Below are positions 5,595-61,046 of a stretch of DNA of 64,000 nt, piece by piece. Position 1 is the first letter of the stretch; every line of letters begins with the position of its first letter. Source of the stretch: Devosia soli (lineage in GTDB: Bacteria > Pseudomonadota > Alphaproteobacteria > Rhizobiales > Devosiaceae); the NCBI RefSeq assembly GCF_000970455.1, contig NZ_LAJG01000014.1:806001-870000 (forward strand), given 5' to 3'. A program made the translations under genes and the position numbers. The notes under the pieces are model-generated. The model was not told where the DNA came from. It ran no database searches and saw only the letters and a list, made by a program, of their open reading frames with translations.

Positions 5595-6641
5595 ATGGCC
5601 CCCGTCTCCCTCCATTCCGTCAAAAAAACCTATGGCGACGTCCAGATCCTCCATGGCATCGATGTTGATATCGCCGATGGCGAATTCATCGTCCTTGTCG
5701 GACCATCGGGCTGCGGCAAGTCCACCTTGCTCCGCATGATCGCCGGCCTTGAAACCATCACCAAGGGCGACATTCGCATCGGGGATCGGGTCGTCAACGA
5801 TCTCGAGCCCAAGGACCGGGACATCGCCATGGTGTTCCAGAATTATGCGCTTTATCCCCATATGACGGTCGCGACCAATATGGGTTTTTCGCTTGAACAT
5901 CGCGGCGCATCGAAGGCCGAGATCGCCGAGCGCGTTAAATGGGCCGCCGATATCCTTGACCTCTCGCACCTCCTCGATCGCTATCCCCGTCAGCTGTCCG
6001 GCGGCCAGCGCCAGCGCGTCGCCATGGGCCGCGCCATCGTGCGCAATCCGCAGGTGTTTCTGTTCGATGAACCGCTCAGCAATCTCGATGCCAAGCTGCG
6101 CGTCGTCATGCGCGGCGAGATCAAGGCGCTGCACCACCGCCTTGGAGTTACCACCGTTTATGTGACCCACGACCAGATCGAAGCCATGACCATGGCTGAC
6201 CGCATCGTCGTGATGCATGCCGGCAAGGTCGAACAGATCGGCGCGCCATTGGAGCTCTACGATCGCCCCGCCAATCTCTTTGTCGCCGGTTTTATCGGCT
6301 CGCCGGCCATGAACATTTTGGGCGGCACGATCGAAGGCGCCGAGTTCAAGGCCGCCGGCGTCACTCTGCCCCTGCCCGCCGGCGTCACCGCGACCGGCGC
6401 CGCCAGCTATGGAATCCGCCCCGAGCATTTTCAGCTTTCGCCGGAGGGTCTTCCCGCCGTGGTCTCGCTGGTCGAACCGATGGGCTCTGAAACCCAGGTC
6501 ACCATGACCCTTGGCGAACACCTCGTCACCGGCGTCTTCCGCGAACGCGTCGCCGCCCGCCCCGGCGAAACCATTCACATCCTGCCAGAGCTCGCTGCGG
6601 TCCATCTTTTCGACGCCACGACCGGCCAGAGGATCAACTGA
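5595..6641 (+). CDS. ABC transporter ATP-binding protein (UgpC/MsmK/MalK type)
   Basis: Cytosolic ATPase of 348 aa that powers the importer encoded just upstream. Walker A is GPSGCGKST at residues 36-44, the Q-loop is in [11 protein letters not shown], the signature is LSGGQRQR, and Walker B is [12 protein letters not shown], followed by the switch histidine in VTHDQIEA. The C-terminal third is the TOBE/OB-fold regulatory domain typical of MalK/UgpC proteins and contains GIRPEHF. The stop shares an A with the start of the next gene (TGATG), so translation is probably coupled. Confidence 0.9.
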
Positions 6642-7327
6642 TGTACGCAACGACCCCACTTTATCAAAAGCTCACCGACGGCAGCTTTCCCGTCATCGTT
6701 TCGCTCGCCCGGCACGACCTCGATCTTGCAAAAGCCGCGCTCGATGGCGGCGCCTATGCGCTCAAAACCCACCTTAACGCCTATCACCGCGCCACCGGCA
6801 CGACCTTCGGCTCCTTCGCCGAGGAGCGCCCATTCTTTGAACAATTGGCAAAGCTCGGTTGCCCCCTCTTAGTCATGGCAGGCCAGGAAACCGTGCCGAC
6901 TGCCGAGGAGATGGACGCTCTGCACGCGCTCGGCTTCGAGGGCTTCAACGTCTATGTCGATCACCTGCAGCCGCACCTGCTGCAATCGAAGCTCCGCCCA
7001 ATGCCGGCTCTGGCGTCGACCAGCACGCCCGAGGACGTGACAAAAATCGCAGCTATCCCCGGCTGCATCATCGAAGCCTCGATCATGCCCTTCGAGCGCT
7101 ATCGCACAGCGATGACCCCGGCAGACCTTCGACGTTATGCCGAGATCGTTGCCGCCGTCGATGTGCCCGTCATCGTCCCAAGCCAACTCGCCCTGACGCC
7201 AAGCGACGCCGTCGCGTTGCGCGAGGTCGGCATCGCCTCCCCCCTCCTCGGCGCAATCGTTACTGGCGATACGCCAACAAGCATGAAAAGCGCGGTAAAG
7301 GCGATCGTAGCCGGACTGGGATCGTAA
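6641..7327 (+). CDS. Uncharacterised probable TIM-barrel protein
   Basis: 228 aa, last gene of the LacI/FAD/ABC operon and coupled to the ATPase gene by TGATG. I do not recognise the family with certainty. The pattern of short strands followed by helices (FPVIVSLARHDLDLAKAA, GCPLLVMAG, GFEGFNVYVD, GCIIEAS, VPVIVPSQLALTPSDAVALREVG, LLGAIVTGD) looks like a small alpha/beta barrel, with a glycine-rich end resembling a phosphate-binding loop. An aldolase or epimerase acting on the imported sugar would fit the context, but this is a guess from fold pattern and position. Confidence 0.55.
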   Translation: MYATTPLYQKLTDGSFPVIVSLARHDLDLAKAALDGGAYALKTHLNAYHRATGTTFGSFAEERPFFEQLAKLGCPLLVMAGQETVPTAEEMDALHALGFEGFNVYVDHLQPHLLQSKLRPMPALASTSTPEDVTKIAAIPGCIIEASIMPFERYRTAMTPADLRRYAEIVAAVDVPVIVPSQLALTPSDAVALREVGIASPLLGAIVTGDTPTSMKSAVKAIVAGLGS

Positions 7328-7343
7328 GGTTCAATCAGAACAA

Positions 7344-7400
7344 GCGCAGGCCGTGCCAAGGACCTCGCAGGAGCAAGTCCTCCTCGAGCACGGCCTGCGC
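7344..7400. terminator. Long convergent hairpin between operons
   Basis: GCGCAGGCCGTGC (7344-7356) pairs perfectly with GCACGGCCTGCGC (7388-7400), a 13-bp stem. Inside the 31-nt loop, AGGAC and GTCCT can form a second stem. It lies between the plus-strand importer operon and the minus-strand SDR gene, where a bidirectional terminator is expected. There is no clear U-run on either side. Confidence 0.55.
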
Positions 7401-7476
7401 CATCCGCGCTTTGCCCCGAAGTGGCTGCGTTAAGGCAAGTCATTGCAGACTACCGCTGGTTTAGTCTTGTCGCCTT

Positions 7477-8313
7477 TCAAATCTCTTCGACATACCCGTG
7501 ACGCCAACCCAGAATACGTTCAGCCTTGCTCGAGTTGAAAAAGCTCTGCCGACCATCCCAGTCACCCTTGATCTCGACATCGGGCAAGAACTCTGCAGCC
7601 AGCGTTCGGCTCGATACGTCCGAAATCGTGTCAGGCGCAACAATGTAAAAGACCTCGTGCCCCTCAAACTTTGCTTCCAGCGCGAGAAGGCATGCATCGG
7701 CGGCGGCATCGCGGCGCGTGTACGCCCAGAGGTGCTTGGCCTTTTCAGGATGGGGATCGTAGTAGCGCTTTGCTACCGAGCGGTCGTCGCAAACGAAATG
7801 AAAACGCAGGCTGGCAATGGTCATGCCAGGATAACGGCGAACGAAGGCGTCGGCCTGCTGCTCGCAGATCCACTTTGAAAGGCTATAGGGATCCTCGCTG
7901 TAATTCGGATGATCCTCATCGATCGGGAAATAATCATAGCGCGGCGTCTTGCTGAAGGCGTGGCCGATGGCATTGACGCTCGACGCCTGGCAGATGCGCA
8001 GGATGCCATTGTCTGCAGCGGCCTGAAGGACATTGTAGCTGCCCACGACATTGTTGTTGTGGACGATATGGTCCGGGTGACGGCCGGGCGAAGGAATGGC
8101 AGCCATGTGGATCACGGCATCGCAGCCCACAAAGGCTTGGAGCAGTGCTTCATAATCCTCCATATCGGCGAGGACGAACCGCCGCTGCGTATTGGCGGCG
8201 ACGTCCGGGTGCTCGACGCGGTCGATGCCGACGACGCTATGGCCTCGCTCTTCCGCAAGAGCCAAGATGGCACGGCCTATGCCGCCGCTGGCCCCGGTAA
8301 TGGCGATCTTCAT
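7477..8313 (-). CDS. NAD(P)-dependent oxidoreductase, extended SDR (uronate-dehydrogenase-like)
   Basis: 278 aa. GASGGIG at residues 7-13 is the Rossmann nucleotide-binding motif. Ser111/112 and the YxxxK pair Tyr143-Lys147 (PYSLSKW) are the SDR catalytic residues. The length and the motif SVNAIGHAF resemble NAD-dependent uronate dehydrogenases and related epimerase-fold enzymes, which oxidise hexuronates to aldarolactones. The start overlaps the stop of the upstream UxuA-like gene (ATGA). Its place at the end of a sugar-acid operon supports a dehydrogenase role. An epimerase activity is an alternative. Confidence 0.75.
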   Translation of the reverse strand: MKIAITGASGGIGRAILALAEERGHSVVGIDRVEHPDVAANTQRRFVLADMEDYEALLQAFVGCDAVIHMAAIPSPGRHPDHIVHNNNVVGSYNVLQAAADNGILRICQASSVNAIGHAFSKTPRYDYFPIDEDHPNYSEDPYSLSKWICEQQADAFVRRYPGMTIASLRFHFVCDDRSVAKRYYDPHPEKAKHLWAYTRRDAAADACLLALEAKFEGHEVFYIVAPDTISDVSSRTLAAEFLPDVEIKGDWDGRQSFFNSSKAERILGWRHGYVEEI

Positions 8314-50541: not shown

Positions 50542-50771
50542 TTCTAACAACTCTGCAACTGCGTCGCTGTGACCAACTCGCAACTCGTTCGAGGTGTGGC
50601 GGCAGGCTTGAAGGGAAGCCAAACGTCTCTTGAAGTACTAAATCGGGTCGTTGTGAGACCAGCTCTCAGGAGGTGATAAACCGACCGACCGCTCTGGGTG
50701 TGCGAAATGCGATAGCACACATTCGGTCTGCCTTCATTCGCCTGTCATTTGCGATCGCCAATGTGTTGGCT

Positions 50772-51434
50772 ATGGCGGAGCATCAGACCCAAGTGAAGCT
50801 GCGAGAAGCTTGCGAGCATCTGCTTTCGACCGCAGCGCACCCTGACGAAGTCACGGTCCGTTCGATCACCCAGCGGGCCGGCACGAATGTCAGTGCCGTC
50901 AACTATCACTTCGGCAGTCTACAGCAGTTGGTCTTCTCGACGGCGGAGCGGGTCTACCTTCGCCTCAACGCGGAGCGTCTGAGGCTTTTGCAGAGTGCAG
51001 TGCAACGCACCCATCCCGCTCCTGCATCGGTGGAAGACCTTATTGCCGCACTGGTCGGCCCCTCTATCCGATGGAGCCTGGATCCCACGTCCAGCTACAA
51101 TGTCATGCGGCACATGACGACCTTGGCTCAGGCCAGTGATCATCCGGAAATCTTTCGACCGATGATCGAAGACATCGAACATCACCTGCAATTCATCCCG
51201 CATTTCCGCAAGATAGCTCCGTGGCTGAGCGAGGTTGATATCGGCTTCCGGATATCCTGCCTTTTGGGCGTGCGGACGCAGATGACCCGCAACCGCCAGA
51301 GAACGCTGGAACTGACCCAGCACGCCATCGATCTTGAAAATGCCGACAGCGTCATCGCGCAGATCGTTGCCGCAACCGCGCCCATGTTCGTGGCGCCGAT
51401 TTCAAACAGCGTTCCAATCCCGTCACGTCACTGA
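50772..51434 (+). CDS. TetR/AcrR-family transcriptional regulator
   Basis: 220 aa from ATG 50772. A GTG at 50673 would add 33 residues with no family support. The helix-turn-helix is TVRSITQRAGTNVSAVNYHFGSLQQL, typical of the AcrR/NalC-like group. The C-terminal domain has long helices. It lies 41 bases upstream of the first metallophosphoesterase gene, same strand, so it may both control and be transcribed with the phosphatase-importer genes. It is not a close copy of the second TetR at 54445-55014. Confidence 0.78.
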   Translation: MAEHQTQVKLREACEHLLSTAAHPDEVTVRSITQRAGTNVSAVNYHFGSLQQLVFSTAERVYLRLNAERLRLLQSAVQRTHPAPASVEDLIAALVGPSIRWSLDPTSSYNVMRHMTTLAQASDHPEIFRPMIEDIEHHLQFIPHFRKIAPWLSEVDIGFRISCLLGVRTQMTRNRQRTLELTQHAIDLENADSVIAQIVAATAPMFVAPISNSVPIPSRH

Positions 51435-51475
51435 GACGGGAGGGCTTTAGTCAGGCTCCAACCGAGGAGCTTGCT

Positions 51476-52327
51476 ATGGCCGAGACCACCTTTATCCACA
51501 TCACCGATCTGCACGTCGGCAATCCCGCAGTCCCCGACGATCATTTGTTCAGCGACACCTCGGCAACGCTCGCCCGTGTGCTTGAGATGATCGACACCAT
51601 GGATCAGACGCCGAGCTTTATCGTGGCGAGCGGCGACCTGACCAATCGCGGCGATGTCGACAGCTATCGTCAGCTCAAAGCCATCATGGCGGCGACCGAT
51701 CTGCCAGTGGTTTATGCGATCGGCAATCACGACACCCGGCCCGGATTTTATGAGGGCATGCTCGAGCGCACCAGCGACCTCGACACGCCCTATGACCACG
51801 ATCAGGTCATCGCTGGCACCCATATCATCACCCTCGACACGACCACGCCCGGACAGATCGGTGGCAGCCTGACGCCCGAGCAGTTTGCCTGGCTCGAAGG
51901 CCGTTTGGACAGCCATGCCGACCTGCCGAAACTGATCGTTGCGCATCACGCGCCTGCGCTCGGCGATGCCCCGCCATGGGATCATTGGCGCACCATCGAA
52001 TTCGATCAGAGCCAGCAGCTGGCCGCCCTTCTCAAGGGTCGGAATGTGCTTGGAATTCTGTCCGGCCATATCCATCACGATCGCTTCTCGGTCTGGCATG
52101 GCATCCCAGTCATCGTGGGGATGGGCCAGCACGCAGCCACCGATATTTTGACGACGAACGTGCTCCGCATGGTCGAAGGCGCCTCCTTCGGCATCGGCAC
52201 GATCCGGTCTTCGGGGCTGACAATGGCGCTCGTCCCCCTTCCCCAAACGCGGCGTGAACTCAACCGCTACGACCTCTCCCTGCTCCGACAGAAGCAGGAA
52301 GCGGCGCTGACCAACGCGGCCGAATAG
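51476..52327 (+). CDS. Metallophosphoesterase (class III cNMP-PDE/GpdQ-like), copy 1
   Basis: 283 aa, no signal peptide, hence cytosolic. The dimetal motifs are complete: DLH (Asp11, His13), GDLTNRGD (Asp54), GNHDTRPG (Asn84, His85), HHAPAL and GHIHHD. This order is that of class III phosphodiesterases such as CpdA, Rv0805 and GpdQ, acting on cyclic nucleotides or glycerophosphodiesters. It is followed by an importer-binding-protein gene (26-base gap) and has a close paralogue at 55164-56036, also upstream of a binding-protein gene. The context favours an imported phosphodiester over a cyclic nucleotide. Confidence 0.85.
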   Translation: MAETTFIHITDLHVGNPAVPDDHLFSDTSATLARVLEMIDTMDQTPSFIVASGDLTNRGDVDSYRQLKAIMAATDLPVVYAIGNHDTRPGFYEGMLERTSDLDTPYDHDQVIAGTHIITLDTTTPGQIGGSLTPEQFAWLEGRLDSHADLPKLIVAHHAPALGDAPPWDHWRTIEFDQSQQLAALLKGRNVLGILSGHIHHDRFSVWHGIPVIVGMGQHAATDILTTNVLRMVEGASFGIGTIRSSGLTMALVPLPQTRRELNRYDLSLLRQKQEAALTNAAE

Positions 52328-52353
52328 CTTTTCCTCGAAAAGGACACCCCTCG

Positions 52354-53649
52354 ATGCAAAAACGCACTTTCCTCAAGCTGGCGGCTCTTGCGCTCGGCGC
52401 AACGGCCATGACCGGGGCAGCCCGCGCCGAAATGGCTGCAGAAATCACCGAACCGGTGACCATCAGCTTTTACAATTATAACCTCGCCACCGCGAGCGCC
52501 GGGGCCGATGCCACCCGCGAGATGATCGCCAAGTTCGAAGAAGAAAACCCGCTGATCAAGGTGGAAACCGTCGGCGTCCCCTCGAATGAGATCATCACCC
52601 GCATTCAGGCCGACATGGCTGCGGGGATCCAGCCTGACGTTGCCCAGCTGGTCTTCCGCGACCTGATCTATCTCGCCTCCGACCTCGGCGCCCAGCCGCT
52701 CGAAGACATGGCCGGTGCTCAAGGCTATGCCGAACTCGTCGATGGCCTGATCCCGCGCGGCGTCGATCTCGGCAAGATCGACGGCAAGACCTATGGTCTG
52801 GCCTACACCTTCTCGACCCCGATCCTTTACTACAATGCCGATCTCTTCCGTCAGGCAGGGCTCGACCCGGACAATCCGCCCAAGACATGGGCCGAGGTGA
52901 ATGCCGCAGCCGAAGCCATCGTCGAAAAGACCGATGCCGACGGTTTCTTCCCCGGCGCCTATGGTCCTGCGGATGGCACCTTCGTCTACCAGGCCATTCT
53001 GATGTCCAACGGCGGCAAAGTGCGCGATGGCAATACGCTGACCTTCGCCGATCCCGCCGGCATCGAGGCAGTGCAGATGCTGCGCGACATGGTCGACAGC
53101 GGCGCCCACGCCCGCCTCGATCCGTCCAACCCGCAGGAAGCCTTCGCGGCCGGCCAGCTCGGCATGTATCTCTATACCAGTGCGCTGCAGAGCTCGCTGT
53201 CCAAGGCCTCCGAAGGCAATTGGGAATTGCGCGTGGCCGCCATGCCCGCCTTTGGTGACAAGCCGACGGCGCCGACCAATTCCGGTTCGGCCCTCTACGC
53301 TTTCTCGCAGGATCCGATCAAGCAGCGCGCCGCCTACGAGCTGATGAAGTTCCTGACCTCGGACTATGGCTACACCATCATCACCTCCAAGATCGGCTAC
53401 CTGCCGCTCCGCCTCGACATCGTCGACGACCCGAAGTTCCTTGGTCCGTGGACGGCTGAGCATCCGCTGATCCGCCCCAATCTCGAGCAGCTTTCGCGCC
53501 TGACGCCAAACGTTGCCTTCCCTGGCCCCAATTACCGCCAGGCGGAGTCGATGATGAAGGAAGCCGTCACCGAAGCCGTCCTTGGCACCAATGACGTCGC
53601 GCAGACCCTGACCGATGCGCAGGCTAACGCACAGGCATTGATGCCCTGA
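52354..53649 (+). CDS. Carbohydrate-type ABC substrate-binding protein (family 1), copy 1
   Basis: 431 aa. The signal peptide covers about residues 1-25 (LKLAALALGATAMTGAARA, then EM). The mature part has PVTISFYNYNLATASAG, RIQADMAAGIQPDVAQLVF and KTYGLAYTFSTPILYYNADLFRQAGLDPDNPPKTW, standard family-1 blocks close to UgpB-type proteins. It is highly similar in block order to 56062-57351. A 9-bp hairpin follows the stop. No permease gene follows; the next gene is a phosphatase, so it probably uses the permeases at 57412-59194. Confidence 0.87.
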   Translation: MQKRTFLKLAALALGATAMTGAARAEMAAEITEPVTISFYNYNLATASAGADATREMIAKFEEENPLIKVETVGVPSNEIITRIQADMAAGIQPDVAQLVFRDLIYLASDLGAQPLEDMAGAQGYAELVDGLIPRGVDLGKIDGKTYGLAYTFSTPILYYNADLFRQAGLDPDNPPKTWAEVNAAAEAIVEKTDADGFFPGAYGPADGTFVYQAILMSNGGKVRDGNTLTFADPAGIEAVQMLRDMVDSGAHARLDPSNPQEAFAAGQLGMYLYTSALQSSLSKASEGNWELRVAAMPAFGDKPTAPTNSGSALYAFSQDPIKQRAAYELMKFLTSDYGYTIITSKIGYLPLRLDIVDDPKFLGPWTAEHPLIRPNLEQLSRLTPNVAFPGPNYRQAESMMKEAVTEAVLGTNDVAQTLTDAQANAQALMP

Positions 53650-53657
53650 TGCGCCGT

Positions 53658-53680
53658 GGGAGCCGGCAAAACCGGCTCCC
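53658..53680 (+). terminator. Intercistronic hairpin after the binding-protein gene
   Basis: GGGAGCCGG pairs perfectly with CCGGCTCCC around CAAAA, followed by GTTTC. It lies 8 bases after the binding-protein stop and 39 bases before the phosphatase start. Confidence 0.65.
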
Positions 53681-53719
53681 GTTTCATCGACAAAATATCC
53701 AAGACAAGAGGAGGTCGCG

Positions 53720-54439
53720 ATGCGTCATTGGCGTTTGCCCGACACACACAATATTCGCGACCTTGGCGGCTATCCGCTGGCATCAGGCGGAACCGCGCAA
53801 TGGCGCCGAATACTGCGGGGGGAAGCACTGCACACCCTGACCGCAGAAGGGCTTTCGGGCCTCGTCGAGAATGAACTGGTGCTCGTCATAGACCTGCGCG
53901 GGCCGCATGAAACCGGCCTTCACATCCATCCCTTTGCCGACCATGACCGTGTGGGCTATCGCAACATCGTGCTGTTCAACGCCCTGAGCCCGATCGCCTT
54001 GGCGGGCCCGTCTTTTGACATGGCGCAGCGCTATTGCGACGCTCTCGACCAATGCGGACCCCAATTCGCCGAAGTCTTTCGCGCTATAGCGAATGCACCT
54101 CTGGGCATGGTGCTTTTTCATTGCACCGCCGGCAAGGACCGCACCGGTGTCGTCGCCGCGCTGCTGCTCGCCAATGCCGGTGTGGCCGAGGAAGATATCG
54201 TCGCCGATTATGCGCTGACCTCCTCGGCAACCGGCTTGATCGACCAACTGCGTACGCGCGCCCTGTCGACCGGCTCCGACCCGATGCAGGTCGAGCGCAT
54301 GCTCGCGAGCGACGCCGCGACAATGGAGCGGTTTCTCGCAGCGCTCAATACCAAGCATGGCGGCATCAAGGCCTATCTCGACGCGATCGGCCTATCGGCT
54401 TCCGAGGTCGACGCGGTCAGAAATCGGCTCTGCCAGTGA
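53720..54439 (+). CDS. PF13350-type tyrosine/inositide-like phosphatase, copy 1
   Basis: 239 aa Cys-based phosphatase. The P-loop [10 protein letters not shown] has the nucleophile Cys135 and Arg141, and the N-terminal THNIRDLGGYPLASGG block is the hallmark of the Y_phosphatase3 family (MptpB and LipA among characterised members, some of which act on phosphoinositides). No signal peptide. It ends 5 bases from the convergent TetR gene. Its linkage to a metallophosphoesterase and an importer suggests it removes a phosphate left after diester cleavage. Protein-tyrosine dephosphorylation is an alternative. Confidence 0.85.
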   Translation: MRHWRLPDTHNIRDLGGYPLASGGTAQWRRILRGEALHTLTAEGLSGLVENELVLVIDLRGPHETGLHIHPFADHDRVGYRNIVLFNALSPIALAGPSFDMAQRYCDALDQCGPQFAEVFRAIANAPLGMVLFHCTAGKDRTGVVAALLLANAGVAEEDIVADYALTSSATGLIDQLRTRALSTGSDPMQVERMLASDAATMERFLAALNTKHGGIKAYLDAIGLSASEVDAVRNRLCQ

Positions 54440-54444
54440 TCGCG

Positions 54445-55014
54445 TCAGCGCCGAATGGCGGCCCAGCACATGTCGGCAATCATGCGCCGGTCCTTGGGTG
54501 CGAGCTTGCTGCCCTTCTGCCGCAGTCGCTTCAAGGCATTGCGGATCGCGCCGCGCACAAAGCTCATGATCAGGGTGGGAAGACCTTCACGCACCGCGCC
54601 GGCGGCCTGGGCGGCTTCGATCAGCCCTATGCCATGCTGGACGAAGGGACCAAAGACCGCTTTGGCATCGTCGAAACTGATCAGCGGGTTGTTGTCGAGA
54701 TAATCGAAGAGACGCGCGCGCTCGGCATCTTCCCAGATGAAGTCGATATAGCGTTCGATATAGCTCGCGAGGTCGGCCTCGGAAGACGTGGAGGCCTTGT
54801 CGGCCAGCATGAGGCTCTCGGCCATTTCCATGCTGACGCGGACATAGACACCGAGGACAAGCTCTTCCTTGTTTTTGAAATAATTATAGAGCGAGCCCGT
54901 CGCGACACTGGCCTCTTCGGCAATGGCCGACATGGAGCATTGCAGACCATTGCGCACGATCAGCCGTGCCGCCGCCGCAAGGATCCGCTCGCGCTTATCC
55001 GGAACCACATCCAT
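54445..55014 (-). CDS. TetR-family transcriptional regulator
   Basis: 189 aa. Helix-turn-helix: RERILAAAARLIVRNG and CSMSAIAEEASVATGSLYNYFKNKEELVLGV, an AcrR/FadR-like pattern. The ligand domain contains EADLASYIERYIDFIWED and a basic C-terminus. It is divergent from the second metallophosphoesterase gene, with an 18-bp inverted repeat directly upstream of its own start. I infer that it represses both itself and the importer operon in response to a metabolite. Confidence 0.87.
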   Translation of the reverse strand: MDVVPDKRERILAAAARLIVRNGLQCSMSAIAEEASVATGSLYNYFKNKEELVLGVYVRVSMEMAESLMLADKASTSSEADLASYIERYIDFIWEDAERARLFDYLDNNPLISFDDAKAVFGPFVQHGIGLIEAAQAAGAVREGLPTLIMSFVRGAIRNALKRLRQKGSKLAPKDRRMIADMCWAAIRR

Positions 55015-55018
55015 TTTC

Positions 55019-55036
55019 TGAATGAACCTTCATTCA
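55019..55036. promoter_or_regulatory. 18-bp inverted repeat, candidate TetR operator
   Basis: TGAATGAA-CC-TTCATTCA has 8-bp perfect arms. It lies 5 bases upstream of the TetR start codon, in the gap shared with the second phosphatase/importer operon. The arms TGAATGA and TCATTCA equal those of the FadR (TetR-type) operator consensus known from Bacillus. Confidence 0.7.
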
Positions 55037-55163
55037 CCTGTCATGGTCGGAAGGTAGCTTTATGACCGTCGCCGCGCAAGCCCTGTGCGAAAAAAGATCG
55101 GCGAACCAGATAGTTACGGCGCGCTAGCGGCCACCAGGGCCCGTGCCAGAACAGGAGACTTCC

Positions 55164-56036
55164 GTGTCCGACACCACAACCTTCGTTCACCTCACTGACC
55201 TCCATGTCGGCAATCCCGCCGTCGAGGACGATCATCTCCATTCCGATACGACGACGACGCTGCGCCGCATTCTGGCCGACGTGAAGTCGCTTGTTCCGCA
55301 GCCCAAATTCATGGTCGTCAGCGGCGACCTGACCAATCGCGGCGATGCCGGGTCCTACGAAAATCTCAAGGGCCTGATCGCCGAGGCCGGTTTCGACATG
55401 CCGATCCTCTTCGCGCTCGGCAATCATGACCGTCGCGACGGGTTTTATCCCACCATGCTCGGCCGCAGCGACAATCTCGATACCCCTTACGACCATGCCG
55501 CGGTGATCGCCGGCATTCACGTCATCGTCCTCGATACCAGCGTTCCCAACAAGATCGGCGGCGCCTTCGAACCGGGCCAGCTCGATTGGCTCAAAAGCGA
55601 ACTGGCCCAGCACGCGGACCTGCCCAAGTTGCTCGTCATGCACCATGCCCCCGCGCTCGACACGCACGACCCGTCGATGGAGTGGGAATCGCTCTCCTAC
55701 GCCGACACCGAAGCGCTGCGCGATGCCGTGGCCGGCAAGAACGTCCTCGGCATCCTTTCGGGCCACATCCACTACGATCGCGTCGCCAATTGGTATGGCA
55801 TCCCGACGGTGGTAGGCATCGGCCAGCACGCGGCAACGGACGTGCTCTGGCTGCATGAGGGCCTCCGCATGCTTGAAGGCGCGGCCTTTGCCATCGGCAC
55901 GGTTCGTCCCTCCGGCCTTGCCATCACCTTCGCGCCACAGCCGGCGACGCGCCGCGAGATCGGCGGGTTCCGCTTCGCCGACATGGCCGAAATGCTCAGG
56001 AAATACGAAGCCGACACCGCGGCTGCCGCCGAATAA
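55164..56036 (+). CDS. Metallophosphoesterase (class III cNMP-PDE/GpdQ-like), copy 2
   Basis: 290 aa. GTG 55164 is used because AGGAG lies six bases upstream. An earlier GTG at 55143 would have no ribosome site. Motifs match copy 1: TDLHVGNPAV (Asp12, His14), SGDLTNRGD, GNHDRRDG, HHAPAL and SGHIHYD. It has no signal peptide. The next gene encodes a binding protein (25-base gap). Likely the first gene of a six-gene operon up to the ATPase at 61046, repressed by the divergent TetR protein. Confidence 0.85.
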   Translation: MSDTTTFVHLTDLHVGNPAVEDDHLHSDTTTTLRRILADVKSLVPQPKFMVVSGDLTNRGDAGSYENLKGLIAEAGFDMPILFALGNHDRRDGFYPTMLGRSDNLDTPYDHAAVIAGIHVIVLDTSVPNKIGGAFEPGQLDWLKSELAQHADLPKLLVMHHAPALDTHDPSMEWESLSYADTEALRDAVAGKNVLGILSGHIHYDRVANWYGIPTVVGIGQHAATDVLWLHEGLRMLEGAAFAIGTVRPSGLAITFAPQPATRREIGGFRFADMAEMLRKYEADTAAAAE

Positions 56037-56061
56037 ACCCGCGAACGAGAAAGCCTCTCCC

Positions 56062-57351
56062 ATGTTCCGCACGTCTCTTCTTGCCGGCCTCCTGGCCCTT
56101 TCCGCGGCGACGCCCGTGCTCGCCCAGACCATGGCGCCGAGCATCGACCAGCCGGTCACCATCACCTTCTACAACTACAATCTTGCCACCGCTGGTCTCG
56201 GCGCCGAGGCGACGCAAAAGCTGATCAACGAATTCATGGCGGCCAATCCCAATGTCACCGTGACAGGGATCGGTTATTCCAGCGCCGATTCGAGCCGCAT
56301 CCAGGCCGATCTGGCTGCGGGTCAGCCGATCGATCTCGTCCAGACCGTCTTTTCCGATCTCGATTTCTCGGTTCACAATTTTGGCGCGCAGGCGCTCGAA
56401 GATATCGCGCCAGCCGAAGAAATCACCGCCCATCTTGCCGGCATGCACCCCAATGGCACCAAGCTCGGTGTGCTCGATGGCAAGACCTATGGGCTCGCCT
56501 ATACGTTCTCGACGCCAGTGCTCTTCTACAATGTCGACCTGTTTCGTGAAGCCGGTCTCGACCCAGATGCGCCGCCAGCAACCTGGGAAGAGCTGAAGGC
56601 TGCAGCCCTTGCCATCGAAGAAAAGACCGACGCCGAAGGCTTCTCCGCCGGCATCACCGGGCCGAGCGCTGTCGACTGGCTGTTCCAGGGCATTGTCCGC
56701 TCCAACAATGGCGAAGTCATCTCGCGCGATCGCAAGACGCTGAAATTTGCCGAGCCCGAGGCGGTCGAAGCCGTCAAGATGCTGCGCGACCTCAACGACG
56801 CCGGCGTCTACGAAGTCTATGAAGGCCTTGGCGCTGTCGACGCGATGTCTTCGGGTTCGCTCGGCATGTATCTTCAGACCAGCGCCCTGCAGTCTGGTCT
56901 CGTCAAGGGCGCCGAAGGCAATTTCGAACTGCGCTCGGCGGCCATGCCGCGCTTTGGCGACAAGCCGACGCGCCCGAACAATTCCGGCTCGGCCCTGACG
57001 ATCCACACCACCGACCCGCTCAAGCAGCGTGCCGCATGGGAGCTGATGAAGTTCCTCACCTCCGATCATGGCTACACCGTCATCACCTCGGAAATCGGTT
57101 ACCTGCCGTTGCGTCCAGCCATCGTCACCGATCCGAACTATCTCGCCGACTGGGTTGCCGAGCACCCGCTCGTCGCCCCCAATCTCGAACAGCTTGACCG
57201 TCTCGAGCCATGGGACCCGATGCCGGGCCCGAACTACCGCCAGATCGTCAAGACGATGATGGACGCAGTCGAAATGTCGATCTTTGGCGGTGCGGATGTC
57301 GAGGCGACGCTCGCTGATGCGCAGGCCAATGCCCAGGCCCTGATGCCCTAA
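56062..57351 (+). CDS. Carbohydrate-type ABC substrate-binding protein (family 1), copy 2
   Basis: 429 aa. Signal peptide at about residues 1-21 (LLAGLLALSAATPVLA, then QT). ATG 56062 starts it directly; a longer frame from 55855 lies over the phosphodiesterase gene. Family blocks such as PVTITFYNYNLATAG, RIQADLAAGQPIDLVQ and KTYGLAYTFSTPVLFYNVDLFREAG match copy 1 at 52354-53649, so the two are paralogues that may bind related but different ligands. A hairpin follows, then the permease genes. Confidence 0.87.
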   Translation: MFRTSLLAGLLALSAATPVLAQTMAPSIDQPVTITFYNYNLATAGLGAEATQKLINEFMAANPNVTVTGIGYSSADSSRIQADLAAGQPIDLVQTVFSDLDFSVHNFGAQALEDIAPAEEITAHLAGMHPNGTKLGVLDGKTYGLAYTFSTPVLFYNVDLFREAGLDPDAPPATWEELKAAALAIEEKTDAEGFSAGITGPSAVDWLFQGIVRSNNGEVISRDRKTLKFAEPEAVEAVKMLRDLNDAGVYEVYEGLGAVDAMSSGSLGMYLQTSALQSGLVKGAEGNFELRSAAMPRFGDKPTRPNNSGSALTIHTTDPLKQRAAWELMKFLTSDHGYTVITSEIGYLPLRPAIVTDPNYLADWVAEHPLVAPNLEQLDRLEPWDPMPGPNYRQIVKTMMDAVEMSIFGGADVEATLADAQANAQALMP

Positions 57352-57358
57352 ACCCCGC

Positions 57359-57384
57359 GACCCATCGCCGAACGGCGTTGGGTC
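57359..57384 (+). terminator. Intercistronic hairpin after the binding-protein gene
   Basis: GACCCA-T-CGCCG pairs with CGGCG-T-TGGGTC around AA: 11 Watson-Crick pairs with one T/T mismatch. It lies 8 bases after the binding-protein stop and 27 bases before the permease start. Confidence 0.6.
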
Positions 57385-57411
57385 ACCCTCTATTCTAAAA
57401 AGGAGCGATCG

Positions 57412-58332
57412 ATGGCCGTGGCTGCAGCCGCCCTTCCCCGCCGCCGGCGCATAACCCAATCGCGCTGGGCGCCCTGGCTTTATCTGTCGCCTGCAATCAT
57501 CACGCTGGTAGTCTGGAGCTATTGGCCGCTGGTGGACGCCGTTCGCCTCAGCTTTTTCCAGTGGAACATGCTGCCGACATCTCCGCAGACCTTTGTCGGC
57601 TGGGACAATTATGTCCGCATCTTTGCCCTGCCCAAATTCTGGCAGGCGTTGCGCAATACCGGGGTCTATATCCTCGGCCTCTTGCCGCTGGCCGTGCTCA
57701 TTCCGCTCGCCATTGCCATCTACACCCATGACCTGCCGGAGCGTTCGCGAAACATCTATCGCGCAATCATCTTCGTGCCGATGATCATCGCGCCTGTCGT
57801 CGGCGCCGCCGTGTGGCGCTGGCTTCTCGACCCCGGCTACGGCCTCGTCAATCAGGCGCTCAAGGGTCTCGGCCTTAACCCGGTAAAATTCCTGTCCGAT
57901 CCGAACGTCGCGATCTGGACTGTGATCATGATCACCGGCTGGAAGCTGATGGGCTTTTCGACACTCATCCTCTCGGCCGCCAATGCCAATATCAATCCAT
58001 CGCTGATCGAAGCGGCGCGCATGGATGGCGCGAGCAAGTGGGAAGTCGTCCGCGACATCCGCCTGCCGCTGTTGAGCTCGACCGTGCTGTTTCTCGTGGT
58101 CATGACCATCCTGCTCGGCGCCCAGTGGAGTTTTACCTATATCAACGTGTTGACCGGCGGCGGTCCGCTCGGCTCAACCTCCAACATCTACTACCTCCTC
58201 TGGGATTTCGGCTTCTCCACCATGTCGGTTGGTTGGAGCTCGGCCTCCGCCGTCATCCTCTTCCTCGGCTTTGGCGCAGTGGCCTTCGTGCTCTTCCGTC
58301 TGATCGACAGGTATTCCTTCCATGACAACTGA
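57412..58332 (+). CDS. Carbohydrate ABC transporter permease (UgpA/MalF type)
   Basis: 306 aa inner-membrane permease. After a basic tail (PRRRRITQSRWAP) it has six helices, beginning with LYLSPAIITLVVWSYWPLV. The ATPase-contacting EAA loop is IEAARMDGASKWEVVRDIRLPLL near residue 200. A ribosome site (AAGGAG) precedes ATG 57412. Overlaps the next permease gene by 11 bases. Confidence 0.87.
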   Translation: MAVAAAALPRRRRITQSRWAPWLYLSPAIITLVVWSYWPLVDAVRLSFFQWNMLPTSPQTFVGWDNYVRIFALPKFWQALRNTGVYILGLLPLAVLIPLAIAIYTHDLPERSRNIYRAIIFVPMIIAPVVGAAVWRWLLDPGYGLVNQALKGLGLNPVKFLSDPNVAIWTVIMITGWKLMGFSTLILSAANANINPSLIEAARMDGASKWEVVRDIRLPLLSSTVLFLVVMTILLGAQWSFTYINVLTGGGPLGSTSNIYYLLWDFGFSTMSVGWSSASAVILFLGFGAVAFVLFRLIDRYSFHDN

Positions 58333-59194
58333 AGCTTTGCGCGCGCCGCGAATTGCGACGCGACCGCTCCGTCGCATCTCGGAAAAATCCGGGCTCGATA
58401 CGGCGGCCGGTCACGTGCTGATGGTCCTGCTGTCGATCTTTTGCCTCTTTCCGGTCTATTGGATGCTGGCCAGCTCGCTCCGGCCCGCTAATGCTATGTT
58501 CGAGACAAGCCTTGTCCCGACCAGCATGTCGCTCGACAATTATACCCAGGCCATCGACGCGATCCCCATCGCCCGCATGTTGATCAACACGCTGGTCTTT
58601 TCGGTTCTCTCGACCGTCTTCCAGCTACTGACCGGGATCATTGCCGCATTTGCCTTTGCGCGCTGGAAATTCCGCTTCGACAAGCTGGTCTATACCGCCA
58701 TCGCCCTCACCTGGCTCGTGCCCTTCCAGGTGGTGATGATCCCCAACTATCTCCTCATCGCGCAGATGGGCCTGCTCGACAGTGTTGCGGCCCTGATCCT
58801 GCCCAATCTCGCAGCCGCTCTCGCTATCCTGCTGCTCGCCCAGGCGATGCGGGGATTTCCCAGGGAGGTCATCGAGGCCGCCCGTATGGATGGCGCCCGC
58901 AATTGGCGGATCCTTTGGGAAGTGCTGGTGCCGAACCTCCGTGGTACCATCGCCTCGCTCGCCATCCTCATCTTCATCTCGAGTTGGAACGAGTACTTCT
59001 GGCCCCTGCTCCTCAGCCGAACGGCAGAAAATTCGGTCATCCAGATCGGCATCCAGATGTTCATGACCGCCGAAGGCAATCAGTGGGGCCCGCTCATGGC
59101 CGCCTCGACCCTCGCGAGCCTCCCCGTCCTACTCATCTACATCGTCCTGCAGCGCCAGGTCGTCCAATCCTTCATGAAATCCGGTATTCGCTGA
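58322..59194 (+). CDS. Carbohydrate ABC transporter permease (UgpE/MalG type)
   Basis: 290 aa permease. The first helix is at about residues 30-52 (HVLMVLLSIFCLFPVYWMLASSL). The EAA loop is IEAARMDGARNWRILWEVLVPNL near residue 180. Its stop shares a base with the start of the second phosphatase gene (TGATG). Together with the preceding gene it is the only permease pair in the phosphatase region and is probably used by both binding proteins. Confidence 0.87.
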   Translation: MTTEALRAPRIATRPLRRISEKSGLDTAAGHVLMVLLSIFCLFPVYWMLASSLRPANAMFETSLVPTSMSLDNYTQAIDAIPIARMLINTLVFSVLSTVFQLLTGIIAAFAFARWKFRFDKLVYTAIALTWLVPFQVVMIPNYLLIAQMGLLDSVAALILPNLAAALAILLLAQAMRGFPREVIEAARMDGARNWRILWEVLVPNLRGTIASLAILIFISSWNEYFWPLLLSRTAENSVIQIGIQMFMTAEGNQWGPLMAASTLASLPVLLIYIVLQRQVVQSFMKSGIR

Positions 59195-59925
59195 TGCACC
59201 AGACCCGACACCTGCCCATTCCCGGCACGCACAATGTTCGTGATCTCGGCGGCTATGCCACCGCTCACGGTTCGACCCGGTTCCGCCGCATACTCCGCGC
59301 CGATGCCCTGCACAAGCTCGACGAAACCGGCATCGGCAATCTGGTCGATACGGGAGTGAAGACAGTCATCGACCTTCGCCATACCGATGAGCTGGCACAC
59401 CGACCGAACCCCTTTGCGACCCACGACACCGTCGCCTATCACAACGTTTCCCTGCTTGATGGTCTGGCGCCCGATCTGATGAGCGAAGGCGATCTGCTGC
59501 TCGAACTCTATCGGCTGACGTTGCAGTCGCGTCAGGCACCGATCGCCGAGGTCCTCACCCTTGTCGCCGAAGCGCCTGAAGGCGTCGTCTTGTTTCATTG
59601 CACCGCCGGCAAGGACCGCACAGGCATTATCGCAGCCCTATTACTGGGGCTGGTGGGCGTAGAACCCGATGACATCGTCGCGGATTATGCGCAGACTGCT
59701 TCCCTGATCGCGCCGATCATTGCCGAAATAACCGCAGGCGCCGTTGCCCGTGGCGCCGACCCCGATAGCTTCAAGCGCCTCTTGGCCTCCGAGCCCGAAA
59801 CCATGGCGGCAACCCTTGCCTTTATCGATGCCGAATATGGCTCGGTGGAGCGCTATCTAGAACTGATCGGGCTCGAGGCAACAACGATAGAGCGCCTCCG
59901 CCAACGCCTTCTGGGAGACTTCTGA
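59194..59925 (+). CDS. PF13350-type tyrosine/inositide-like phosphatase, copy 2
   Basis: 243 aa, coupled at both ends by TGATG (to the permease before and the ATPase after), so it is made together with the importer. N-terminal [15 protein letters not shown] and P-loop [10 protein letters not shown] with Cys136 and Arg142 are intact. It is a clear paralogue of 53720-54439. A longer upstream frame lies over the permease gene and is not real. Cytosolic. Being embedded inside the transport operon, it is likely to act on the imported compound rather than on proteins. Confidence 0.87.
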
Positions 59926-61046
59926 TGGCTGACCTCAAAATTTCCAACGTGAAGAAGGCCTATGATGGCAAGCCCGTGCTACATGGCGTCGACCTCTCCA
60001 TTCCCGATAGCCATTTCGCCGTCATCGTCGGTCCATCGGGCTGTGGCAAATCCACCCTTTTGCGCATGATCGCGGGGCTCGAAGACATCACTTCGGGCGA
60101 AATCGCCATTGGCGGCGTGGTCATGAACGATATCGAGCCATCCGACCGCGGCTGCGCCATGGTGTTCCAGAACTATGCGCTTTATCCGCACATGTCGGTA
60201 CGCCAGAACATTGCCTATCCGCTGCGTCTCGCCGGTGTGCCGGTCGCCGAGCGTAATGTCCGCGTCGAACAGGCCGCAAAAATCCTCAACCTCACAGACT
60301 ATCTTGATCGCCGGCCTGCCCAGCTTTCCGGCGGCCAGCGCCAGCGCGTTGCCATGGGCCGCGCCATCGTGCGCGAACCAGACGTCTTCCTGTTCGACGA
60401 ACCGCTATCCAACCTTGACGCGCTCCTCCGCGTGCAGATGCGCATCGAGATCAAGAAACTGCACAAGCGGCTCAATGCCACCTCGATCTTTGTGACCCAT
60501 GATCAAGTGGAGGCCATGACCCTTGCCGATACGCTGATCGTCATGAATGGCGGCCGGGTCGAGCAGATCGGCTCGCCAACCGAAATCTATCGGGAACCCG
60601 CATCGGCCTTCGTCGCTGGCTTTATGGGCGCCCCGGCCATGAACCTCTTGCCTGCGACGGTCGGCGCCGATGGGCAGATCCTGCTGGATGCACCTGGCAA
60701 TCCGCAGGGCCTCGCCCGCTGCGCCTTACCCGAAGGATCGCCCGTGACCCTCGGCATTCGTCCTGAAAATGTCGTGCTGGCAGAGACGTCAGGTGCAGGT
60801 CTCCCCGCCACGGTAGATCTCGTCGAAGAGCTCGGGGGGTCACGTGTGGCCTATTGCAATGTCGCTGGTCACGAAATGTCCGTCGTCTTGCCCGCCAGCG
60901 ACGACCCGCTCGAAGGAAAACCTGTCTGGCTGACCCTGCCGAACCAGGACCTGCACCTGTTTGACCGCATTTCCGGACGTCGACTGGAGGCGGACATGAC
61001 AACTGGCGACAAGTTAGCAAAGCGAGAAGTGGAAACGGTCGCTTAG
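59925..61046 (+). CDS. ABC transporter ATP-binding protein (UgpC/MsmK type)
   Basis: 373 aa. Walker [10 protein letters not shown] at residues 36-44, Q-loop [11 protein letters not shown], signature LSGGQRQR, Walker [13 protein letters not shown], and switch His in VTHDQVEAM. The C-terminal TOBE domain contains LGIRPENV. It is the last gene of the operon and the only ATPase among the phosphatase-importer genes. Similar in order of motifs to 5595-6641 but a separate gene. Confidence 0.9.

Follow-up and report, generated by a model that had tools for sequence, protein, structure and literature searches.

Why should a single sugar-type ABC importer be accompanied by two metallophosphoesterases, two binding proteins and two phosphatases? 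The question is raised by a locus (positions 50772–61046) in the 64,000-nucleotide stretch of DNA analysed here, called the window, which belongs to the 4.1 Mb genome of Devosia soli (contig NZ_LAJG01000014.1). A TetR-like gene is followed there by the genes of a metallophosphoesterase (MPE1), a binding protein (SBP1) and a PF13350 phosphatase (PTP1), and after a divergent TetR gene come MPE2, SBP2, two permeases, PTP2 and a UgpC-type ATPase. These genes probably form two linked cassettes that scavenge phosphorus, and perhaps also carbon, from small phosphodiesters by import, cytoplasmic cleavage and dephosphorylation, under the control of phosphate and substrate. The phosphodiester reading is supported by the linkage of MPE, SBP, permease and PTP genes, the swapping of parts between loci, the trees, the binding-protein residues, the PTP loop and the Pho-box-like sites.

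All genes of the two sets lie on the forward strand. The first set comprises MPE1 (51476–52327), a predicted cytoplasmic phosphodiesterase of the class III type with a PF00149 domain and intact metal-ligand motifs, SBP1 (52354–53649), a CUT1-type binding protein (PF13416/PF01547), and PTP1 (53720–54439), assigned by its family match. In the second set, MPE2 (55164–56036, PF00149) has a GTG start with AGGAG upstream, GTG 55143 being an alternative, and is followed by SBP2 (56062–57351), of the same type and families as SBP1 and with an AlphaFold model of pLDDT 90.2. The UgpA-like permease (57412–58332) overlaps the UgpE-like permease (58322–59194), both PF00528, and PTP2 (59194–59925) and the ATPase (59925–61046) complete the set. 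The AlphaFold model of PTP2 has a pLDDT of 91.7, and its nearest solved fold is PtpB of Mycobacterium tuberculosis. PTP1 and PTP2 are the two PF13350 matches of the whole genome.

As the first-pass annotation of this DNA had described, the two sets are pairwise alike, with 153/286 identical residues between the MPEs (53%), 236/407 between the SBPs (58%) and 104/237 between the PTPs (44%), and the locus holds a single permease pair and a single ATPase; the coordinates and families given there hold. Its statement that the enzymes have no signal peptides agrees with the sequences as read, since the MPEs and PTPs open directly with their catalytic domains; each SBP has a hydrophobic leader at its start. 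The TGATG couplings that it had noticed on both sides of PTP2 are real and largely conserved: in 31 of 33 loci of the kind called type B below, the permease stop codon is overlapped or directly adjoined by a start codon, and in 26 of the 33 the stop codon of the PTP shares bases with an ATG. The retention of these overlaps makes it probable that phosphatase and transporter are co-translated.

The annotation had made its linked pathway depend on a conserved neighbourhood in other genomes, and the three families do co-occur there. A scan of 84,980 species genomes with an MPE alignment gave 132 relatives; the 80 best, which correspond to 76 loci, were retained. Within 8.5 kb of the MPE, these MPE-picked loci contain the SBP in 65 cases, both permeases in 64, the PTP in 62 and the ATPase in 38. 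The 11 loci without an SBP comprise L075, whose 5-kb contig has no module gene in the 3.9 kb downstream of the MPE, and ten solo MPE genes of the Agrobacterium lineage. Three of the 65 SBP-bearing loci have no PTP (L045, L107 and L076, the contig of the last ending inside the SBP gene). The ten solo MPE genes (L047–L052, L056, L058, L059, L061) were considered for a link with a peptide-type transporter, which was dropped as a substrate clue because next to them lie genes for a long protein with 28% likeness to the ATPase and for a Na/Pi cotransporter-like protein.

The MPE itself is rare. Of the other 36 genomes in the genus 7 have it, as do 5 of 397 genomes of the order at 1e-50 (the own genome and G059 included, the latter without a module gene in the 14.7 kb fetched) and one of 385 genomes of the class, the own one; such genome searches score only the few best candidates per genome, which makes the absences soft. 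Anchored on the SBP, the search matched 34 of the 385 class genomes at 1e-35, the own included, and among 29 loci fetched, 15 have an MPE of the kind in L121 adjoining the SBP. Two further SBP-anchored loci, L173 and L175, have a different MPE plus a PTP, as the longer stretches L214 and L213 show. Anchored on the PTP, it found 20 places in 19 of the 397 order genomes. Four close ones lie inside the module, and next to the 16 distant ones (E 7e-32 to 2e-37) the nearest 1.5 kb or so contain no module gene. The PF13350 family as a whole is thus not dedicated to a role in the module.

The related loci fall into two types, which differ in gene order. Type B has a divergent TetR gene, MPE, SBP, two permeases, PTP and ATPase; in type A the TetR gene comes first, then in some loci the ATPase, then MPE, SBP, two permeases and PTP. 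Trees made with FastTree separate A from B for each part, the numbers of A/B rows and the support being 39/45 (100) for the SBP, 34/40 (98) for the PTP, 28/44 (100) for the UgpA-like permease, 28/43 (100) for the UgpE-like permease and 9/36 (91) for the ATPase, and, in the part of the MPE tree covered, an A clade of 39 rows (100). In these trees MPE1, SBP1 and PTP1 of the window belong to type A, and its permeases and ATPase to type B. The same composite is found in seven other Devosia loci (L033–L036, L038, L040, L041) and in a Chelatococcus locus (L042): the MPE and SBP of the first set are type A, as is the PTP where it is in one frame, and only type B permeases and a type B ATPase are present. 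Since the first-set parts are type A and the only transporter core is type B, the composite is, by its placement in the trees, a type A module minus its transporter core adjoining a complete type B module. A and B are, on the same evidence, two old module types, each of which has its own permeases elsewhere. The identities of 53, 58 and 44%, together with the trees, rule out a very recent local duplication, and the description of the locus as a “duplicated” set was thus misleading: two anciently separate types have been joined, and the first set lacks type A permeases and a type A ATPase.

The absence of an own-type transporter raises the possibility of a decaying relic: once the type A permeases were lost, the enzymes and SBP of the first set would have stayed behind without an independent function. 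It would fit that other Devosia have type B loci lacking set A (L032, L043, L082), that the PTP1 of L033 and of L036 is divided between two frames, and that the copy in L070 is broken throughout. However, eight other composite or hybrid loci (L034, L035, L038, L040, L041, L042, L074, L078) have MPE1, SBP1 and PTP1 each in a single open frame, and Devosia psychrophila (L074) and Rhizobium Leaf306 (L078) have kept the SBP and MPE of set A, MPE2 and SBP2 being absent from the locus; the genome of D. psychrophila has one MPE. In these two, SBP1 would serve type B permeases, so a type A SBP can, we infer, work with them, and a functionless first set is very improbable. The broken copy comes from a metagenome-assembled genome of Devosia ginsengisoli (L070/L026), where most genes of the composite are disrupted as if by sequencing errors; L070 was excluded from the trees, the Pho scoring and the counts of type B overlaps and operators. 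Extra tandem SBP copies with one permease pair occur in L024, L030, L055 and L065, accompanied by an extra MPE in L024 and L065, and several SBPs per transporter are thus a recurrent arrangement. The type B modules of two plasmids of Sulfitobacter and Pseudosulfitobacter (L110, L111) adjoin transposase genes of IS21, IS3 or TniQ/TniB/Mu type, which suggests movement of the module.

The binding proteins share three residues with the phosphate site of UgpB. In UgpB the phosphate is coordinated by Tyr64, Ser143, Ser266 and Tyr342 (PMC12718374). At the equivalent positions of an alignment of 84 SBPs, Ser143 is Ser in 84/84, Ser266 is Ser in 78/84 (Thr in six) and Tyr342 is Tyr in 84/84; the position of Tyr64 could not be mapped in this alignment. 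SBP1 and SBP2 have all three, and among 24 reliably aligned family members of the own genome the Ser/Ser/Tyr combination occurs only in SBP1, SBP2 and UgpB. (The genome has 35 PF13416 hits, of which 30 were fetched; the near-zero frames L146, L162, L165, L168 and L170 were dropped and L161 repeats L156, which leaves 24.) The Trp188/Trp191 clamp of glycerol-3-phosphate binders is not found in full: at Trp191 there is Trp in 45/45 type B and Phe in 39/39 type A sequences, and the Trp188 column, which is gapped and insecure, has no Trp in the listed residues (39/39 type A, 42/45 type B). The ATPase, with 511.6 bits, passes the cut-off of 432 of the UgpC subfamily model NF008653, the permeases reach 119.9 and 136.9 bits against UgpA and UgpE cut-offs of 335 and 297, and the SBPs reach 70.5 and 65.7 bits against a UgpB equivalog cut-off of 411.

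The MPEs score 56.6 and 57.1 bits against PF00149 (cut-off 21.5) and contain the D-x-H, GDLT, GNHD, HH and GHxHxD motifs, whose columns are invariant in 16/16 rows. By these family criteria, they are class III metallophosphoesterases of the SpdA/CpdA/Rv0805/GpdQ type. The loop HCxAGKDRTG is present in PTP1 and PTP2 and invariant in 29/29 PTP sequences, and it matches the P-loop signature HCxxGKDR[TA]G of PF13350 atypical lipid phosphatases of the PtpB/LipA type, as given in a report which also describes Pho16B, a PF13350-type enzyme promiscuous on small phosphate esters (PMC6409689).

The same machine could also act on another class of substrate. Were the imported compound nucleotide-like, that is, dinucleotides, short RNA fragments or 2',3'-cyclic nucleotides, the MPE would produce a nucleoside monophosphate from which the PTP would remove the phosphate. 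However, the relevant model scores are all far under their cut-offs (SpdA equivalog, 87.6 and 84.4 bits for the MPEs, cut-off 400), and clustering of the neighbours of 80 loci (clusters in at least four loci) gave no constant eighth partner gene, and hence no nucleoside catabolism genes beside the module; the commonest neighbours were scattered ABC and SDR genes. This clustering omitted the solo loci of the Agrobacterium lineage and did not cover the flanks of the Bartonella tamiae locus L072. A nucleotide-like substrate is rather unlikely.

A different role for the enzymes would be expected if the importer were an ordinary sugar importer and the MPE and PTP were regulatory, serving cyclic nucleotide turnover and protein dephosphorylation and not catabolism. 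The ABC family is indeed of carbohydrate type, Pfam labels PF13350 a tyrosine phosphatase family and the top structural match of the binding protein is a sugar binder, but used as a ligand test the structure comparison gives sugar and phosphodiester binders nearly tied and does not decide between them. The phosphate residues of the SBPs, the Pho-box-like sites described below and the lack of a constant linked sugar catabolic gene speak against this explanation, as does the exchange of parts around the MPE, which stays when a HAD hydrolase replaces the PTP in one locus and a peptide-type importer replaces the CUT1 importer in others. These observations make a plain sugar importer with regulatory enzymes improbable.

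The exchanges are seen in several settings. In Rhizobium T136, a cluster of ATPase, two permeases, SBP and MPE ends with the HAD hydrolase in the place of the PTP. On two Roseobacteraceae plasmids, one of which has a Na/Pi cotransporter gene upstream, the MPE and PTP follow the peptide-type importer (PF00496 in L112); the MPE of L112 is 44–46% and its PTP 37–49% identical to the window proteins. The actinobacterium Microbacterium sediminis has all parts in a different order, with identities to the window of 40% for the SBP, 46–49% for the permeases, 37–38% for the PTP and 28–35% for the MPE, and one Enterococcus faecium plasmid carries SBP, two permeases, ATPase and MPE and no phosphatase. A commoner “type C” cluster of Alphaproteobacteria (L202–L212, L121) has the order ATPase, permease, permease, SBP, MPE. 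Na/Pi cotransporter-like genes lie near the MPE in two unrelated settings (L051, 7482–9131; L112, 1129–2784), perhaps for the freed phosphate. In L117, a gene for a xylose-isomerase-like TIM barrel (6186–7783) overlaps an MPE gene next to a convergent peptide-type importer, a possible clue to a sugar phosphodiester.

Each set has its own predicted regulator. The TetR-like gene ahead of the type A set (50772–51434, forward strand; start taken at ATG 50772 rather than GTG 50673) matches TetR_C_30 with 26.6 bits (cut-off 26.3) and misses the TetR_N cut-off of 24 with 22.4 bits; its orthologs head the type A loci. The TetR gene of the type B set (54445–55014, reverse strand, PF00440) lies divergently between the two sets and keeps this position across type B loci. 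The sequence TGAATGAACCTTCATTCA (55019–55036) is predicted from its conservation to be the TetR operator: in 40 type B intergenic regions the strict core occurs in 35 and a looser palindrome in 38, and it is the sole site of the genome within two mismatches.

The Pho box was taken as CTGTCAY-N4-CTGTCAY. A genome-wide scan finds Pho-box-like sites on the forward strand ahead of the type A set (CCTTCATTCGCCTGTCAT, 50731–50748) and ahead of the type B set (CCTTCATTCACCTGTCAT, 55027–55044, overlapping the right arm of the operator), each with 12 of 14 consensus positions. The genome has 19 sites within two mismatches of CTGTCAT-N4-CTGTCAT, as compared with six for the reversed control; the 19 include those that precede phnM, ugpB and cpdB (genes identified by NCBIfam scores over the cut-off) and those of both sets. 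Scores of at least 11/14 are reached upstream of 29/33 type B and 8/11 composite type A sets, against 1.6–1.9% of random stretches, and in solo type A loci by 6/23 and 2/23, against 1.2%. Ten solo loci were omitted from this scoring, L038 and L041 fell outside the type B set by a coordinate rule though they bear the motif, and the 11-base phase is built into the score and is no independent evidence. Both sets look as if they were switched on by phosphate hunger.

Several observations, the divided PTP1 frames of L033 and L036 among them, weigh against two working, phosphate-controlled cassettes. The rest of the 19 sites include ones inside, or away from, genes that have no clear role in phosphate use. 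The Pho-like sequence of type B is nearly constant and overlaps the conserved palindrome, and the TetR operator may thus account for some of its score; a role of CTGTCAT as a −35 element, judged by eye for both strands, may also contribute to the conservation. Beyond types A and B, 12 loci (11 of type C kind and L213) give a mean best score of 9.2 against 8.8 for random stretches, with one of the 12 at 11 or above. The type C loci mostly have no linked phosphatase, which speaks against a fixed three-part pathway.

With these points taken into account, the two-cassette phosphodiester pathway would proceed as follows. SBP1 and SBP2 would each bind a different, related phosphodiester in the periplasm and deliver it to the one permease pair and ATPase. 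MPE1 or MPE2 would hydrolyse the diester in the cytoplasm to an alcohol and a phosphomonoester, from which PTP1 or PTP2 would then remove the phosphate, the enzymes of each set presumably being matched to their own SBP. PhoB is the predicted activator of both sets under phosphate hunger, and each TetR protein would release its own set when a compound of the pathway is present. The import, cleavage and dephosphorylation with two binding proteins proposed by the first-pass annotation are thus supported by the neighbourhood, the part swapping, the SBP residues and the Pho-box-like sites. Its more specific guess, a glycerophospho-polyol, would be one candidate for the ligand, and its wording of a duplicated set had to be given up. 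Cleavage in the cytoplasm after intact uptake would retain the freed phosphate in the cell, unlike the action of secreted diesterases.

On a wider view, for and against which the evidence is about evenly balanced, the locus would represent a widespread class of phosphodiester-scavenging cassettes with exchangeable parts around a near-constant MPE core, with two unrelated importer types and two unrelated phosphatase folds, on chromosomes and plasmids of Alphaproteobacteria and Actinobacteria; a pair of cassettes differing in ligand would have merged onto one channel in Devosia and Chelatococcus, under joint control by PhoB and TetR. If true, a set annotated as sugar transporter, metallophosphoesterase and tyrosine phosphatase would mark the use of organic phosphorus by rhizobia, Devosia and Roseobacters, and the composite locus would be a natural experiment on the way in which one transporter comes to serve two binding proteins.

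The principle of uptake followed by cleavage is known from the Ugp system, which takes up glycerol-3-phosphate and glycerophosphodiesters through UgpBAEC, has the diesterase UgpQ in its operon and is under Pho control. The locus resembles it in the CUT1 importer, the UgpC-type ATPase and the Ser/Ser/Tyr residues of the SBPs. It differs in that the SBPs and permeases score far under the Ugp models and the Trp clamp is incomplete, the predicted diesterase is a metallophosphoesterase and not of the GDPD type, a PF13350 phosphatase is added, and there are two SBP/enzyme sets per transporter and TetR regulators. UgpB of M. tuberculosis, a glycerophosphocholine binder, and the U3G binder of Thermus are CUT1 phosphodiester-binding proteins with a high structural match and the Ser/Ser/Tyr residues (PMC12718374), at 21–23% identity.

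The acc operon resembles the locus in joining importer, phosphodiesterase and phosphatase in one operon, as set B does by family assignment, a likeness of layout only. Its AccF is GDPD-like, AccG is inositol-phosphatase-like and the importer is not of the CUT1 type; in place of the binding protein AccA, the locus has PF13416/PF01547 proteins. Nearest to acc in layout is the Sulfitobacter variant, which combines MPE and PTP with a binding protein of the PF00496 family. As described in the published account, acc lies on pTiC58 and encodes an ABC importer, the cytoplasmic phosphodiesterase AccF and the phosphatase AccG for the sugar phosphodiester agrocinopine (PMC4526662). The xanthosan system of Xanthomonas reportedly also uses a sugar phosphodiester, with other families (PMC12807533).

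A possible expression counterpart is found in Phaeobacter sp. MED193, in which phosphorus starvation reportedly raises MED193_11288 (a predicted phosphodiesterase), 11293 (a sugar ABC binding protein) and 11308 (a sugar ABC ATPase); in the phoB mutant 11288 and 11308 were not detected and the binding protein 11293 was still raised (+3.27) (PMC10132767). The spacing of the tags would fit a cluster of MPE, SBP, two permeases and ATPase; the table does not contain 11298 and 11303. The principle of import and cleavage is already known from Ugp and acc, and the combination of MPE, PTP and CUT1 importer is not named among the top-ranked results of the open-access literature searched; this combination is therefore a new variant of the Ugp and agrocinopine kind.

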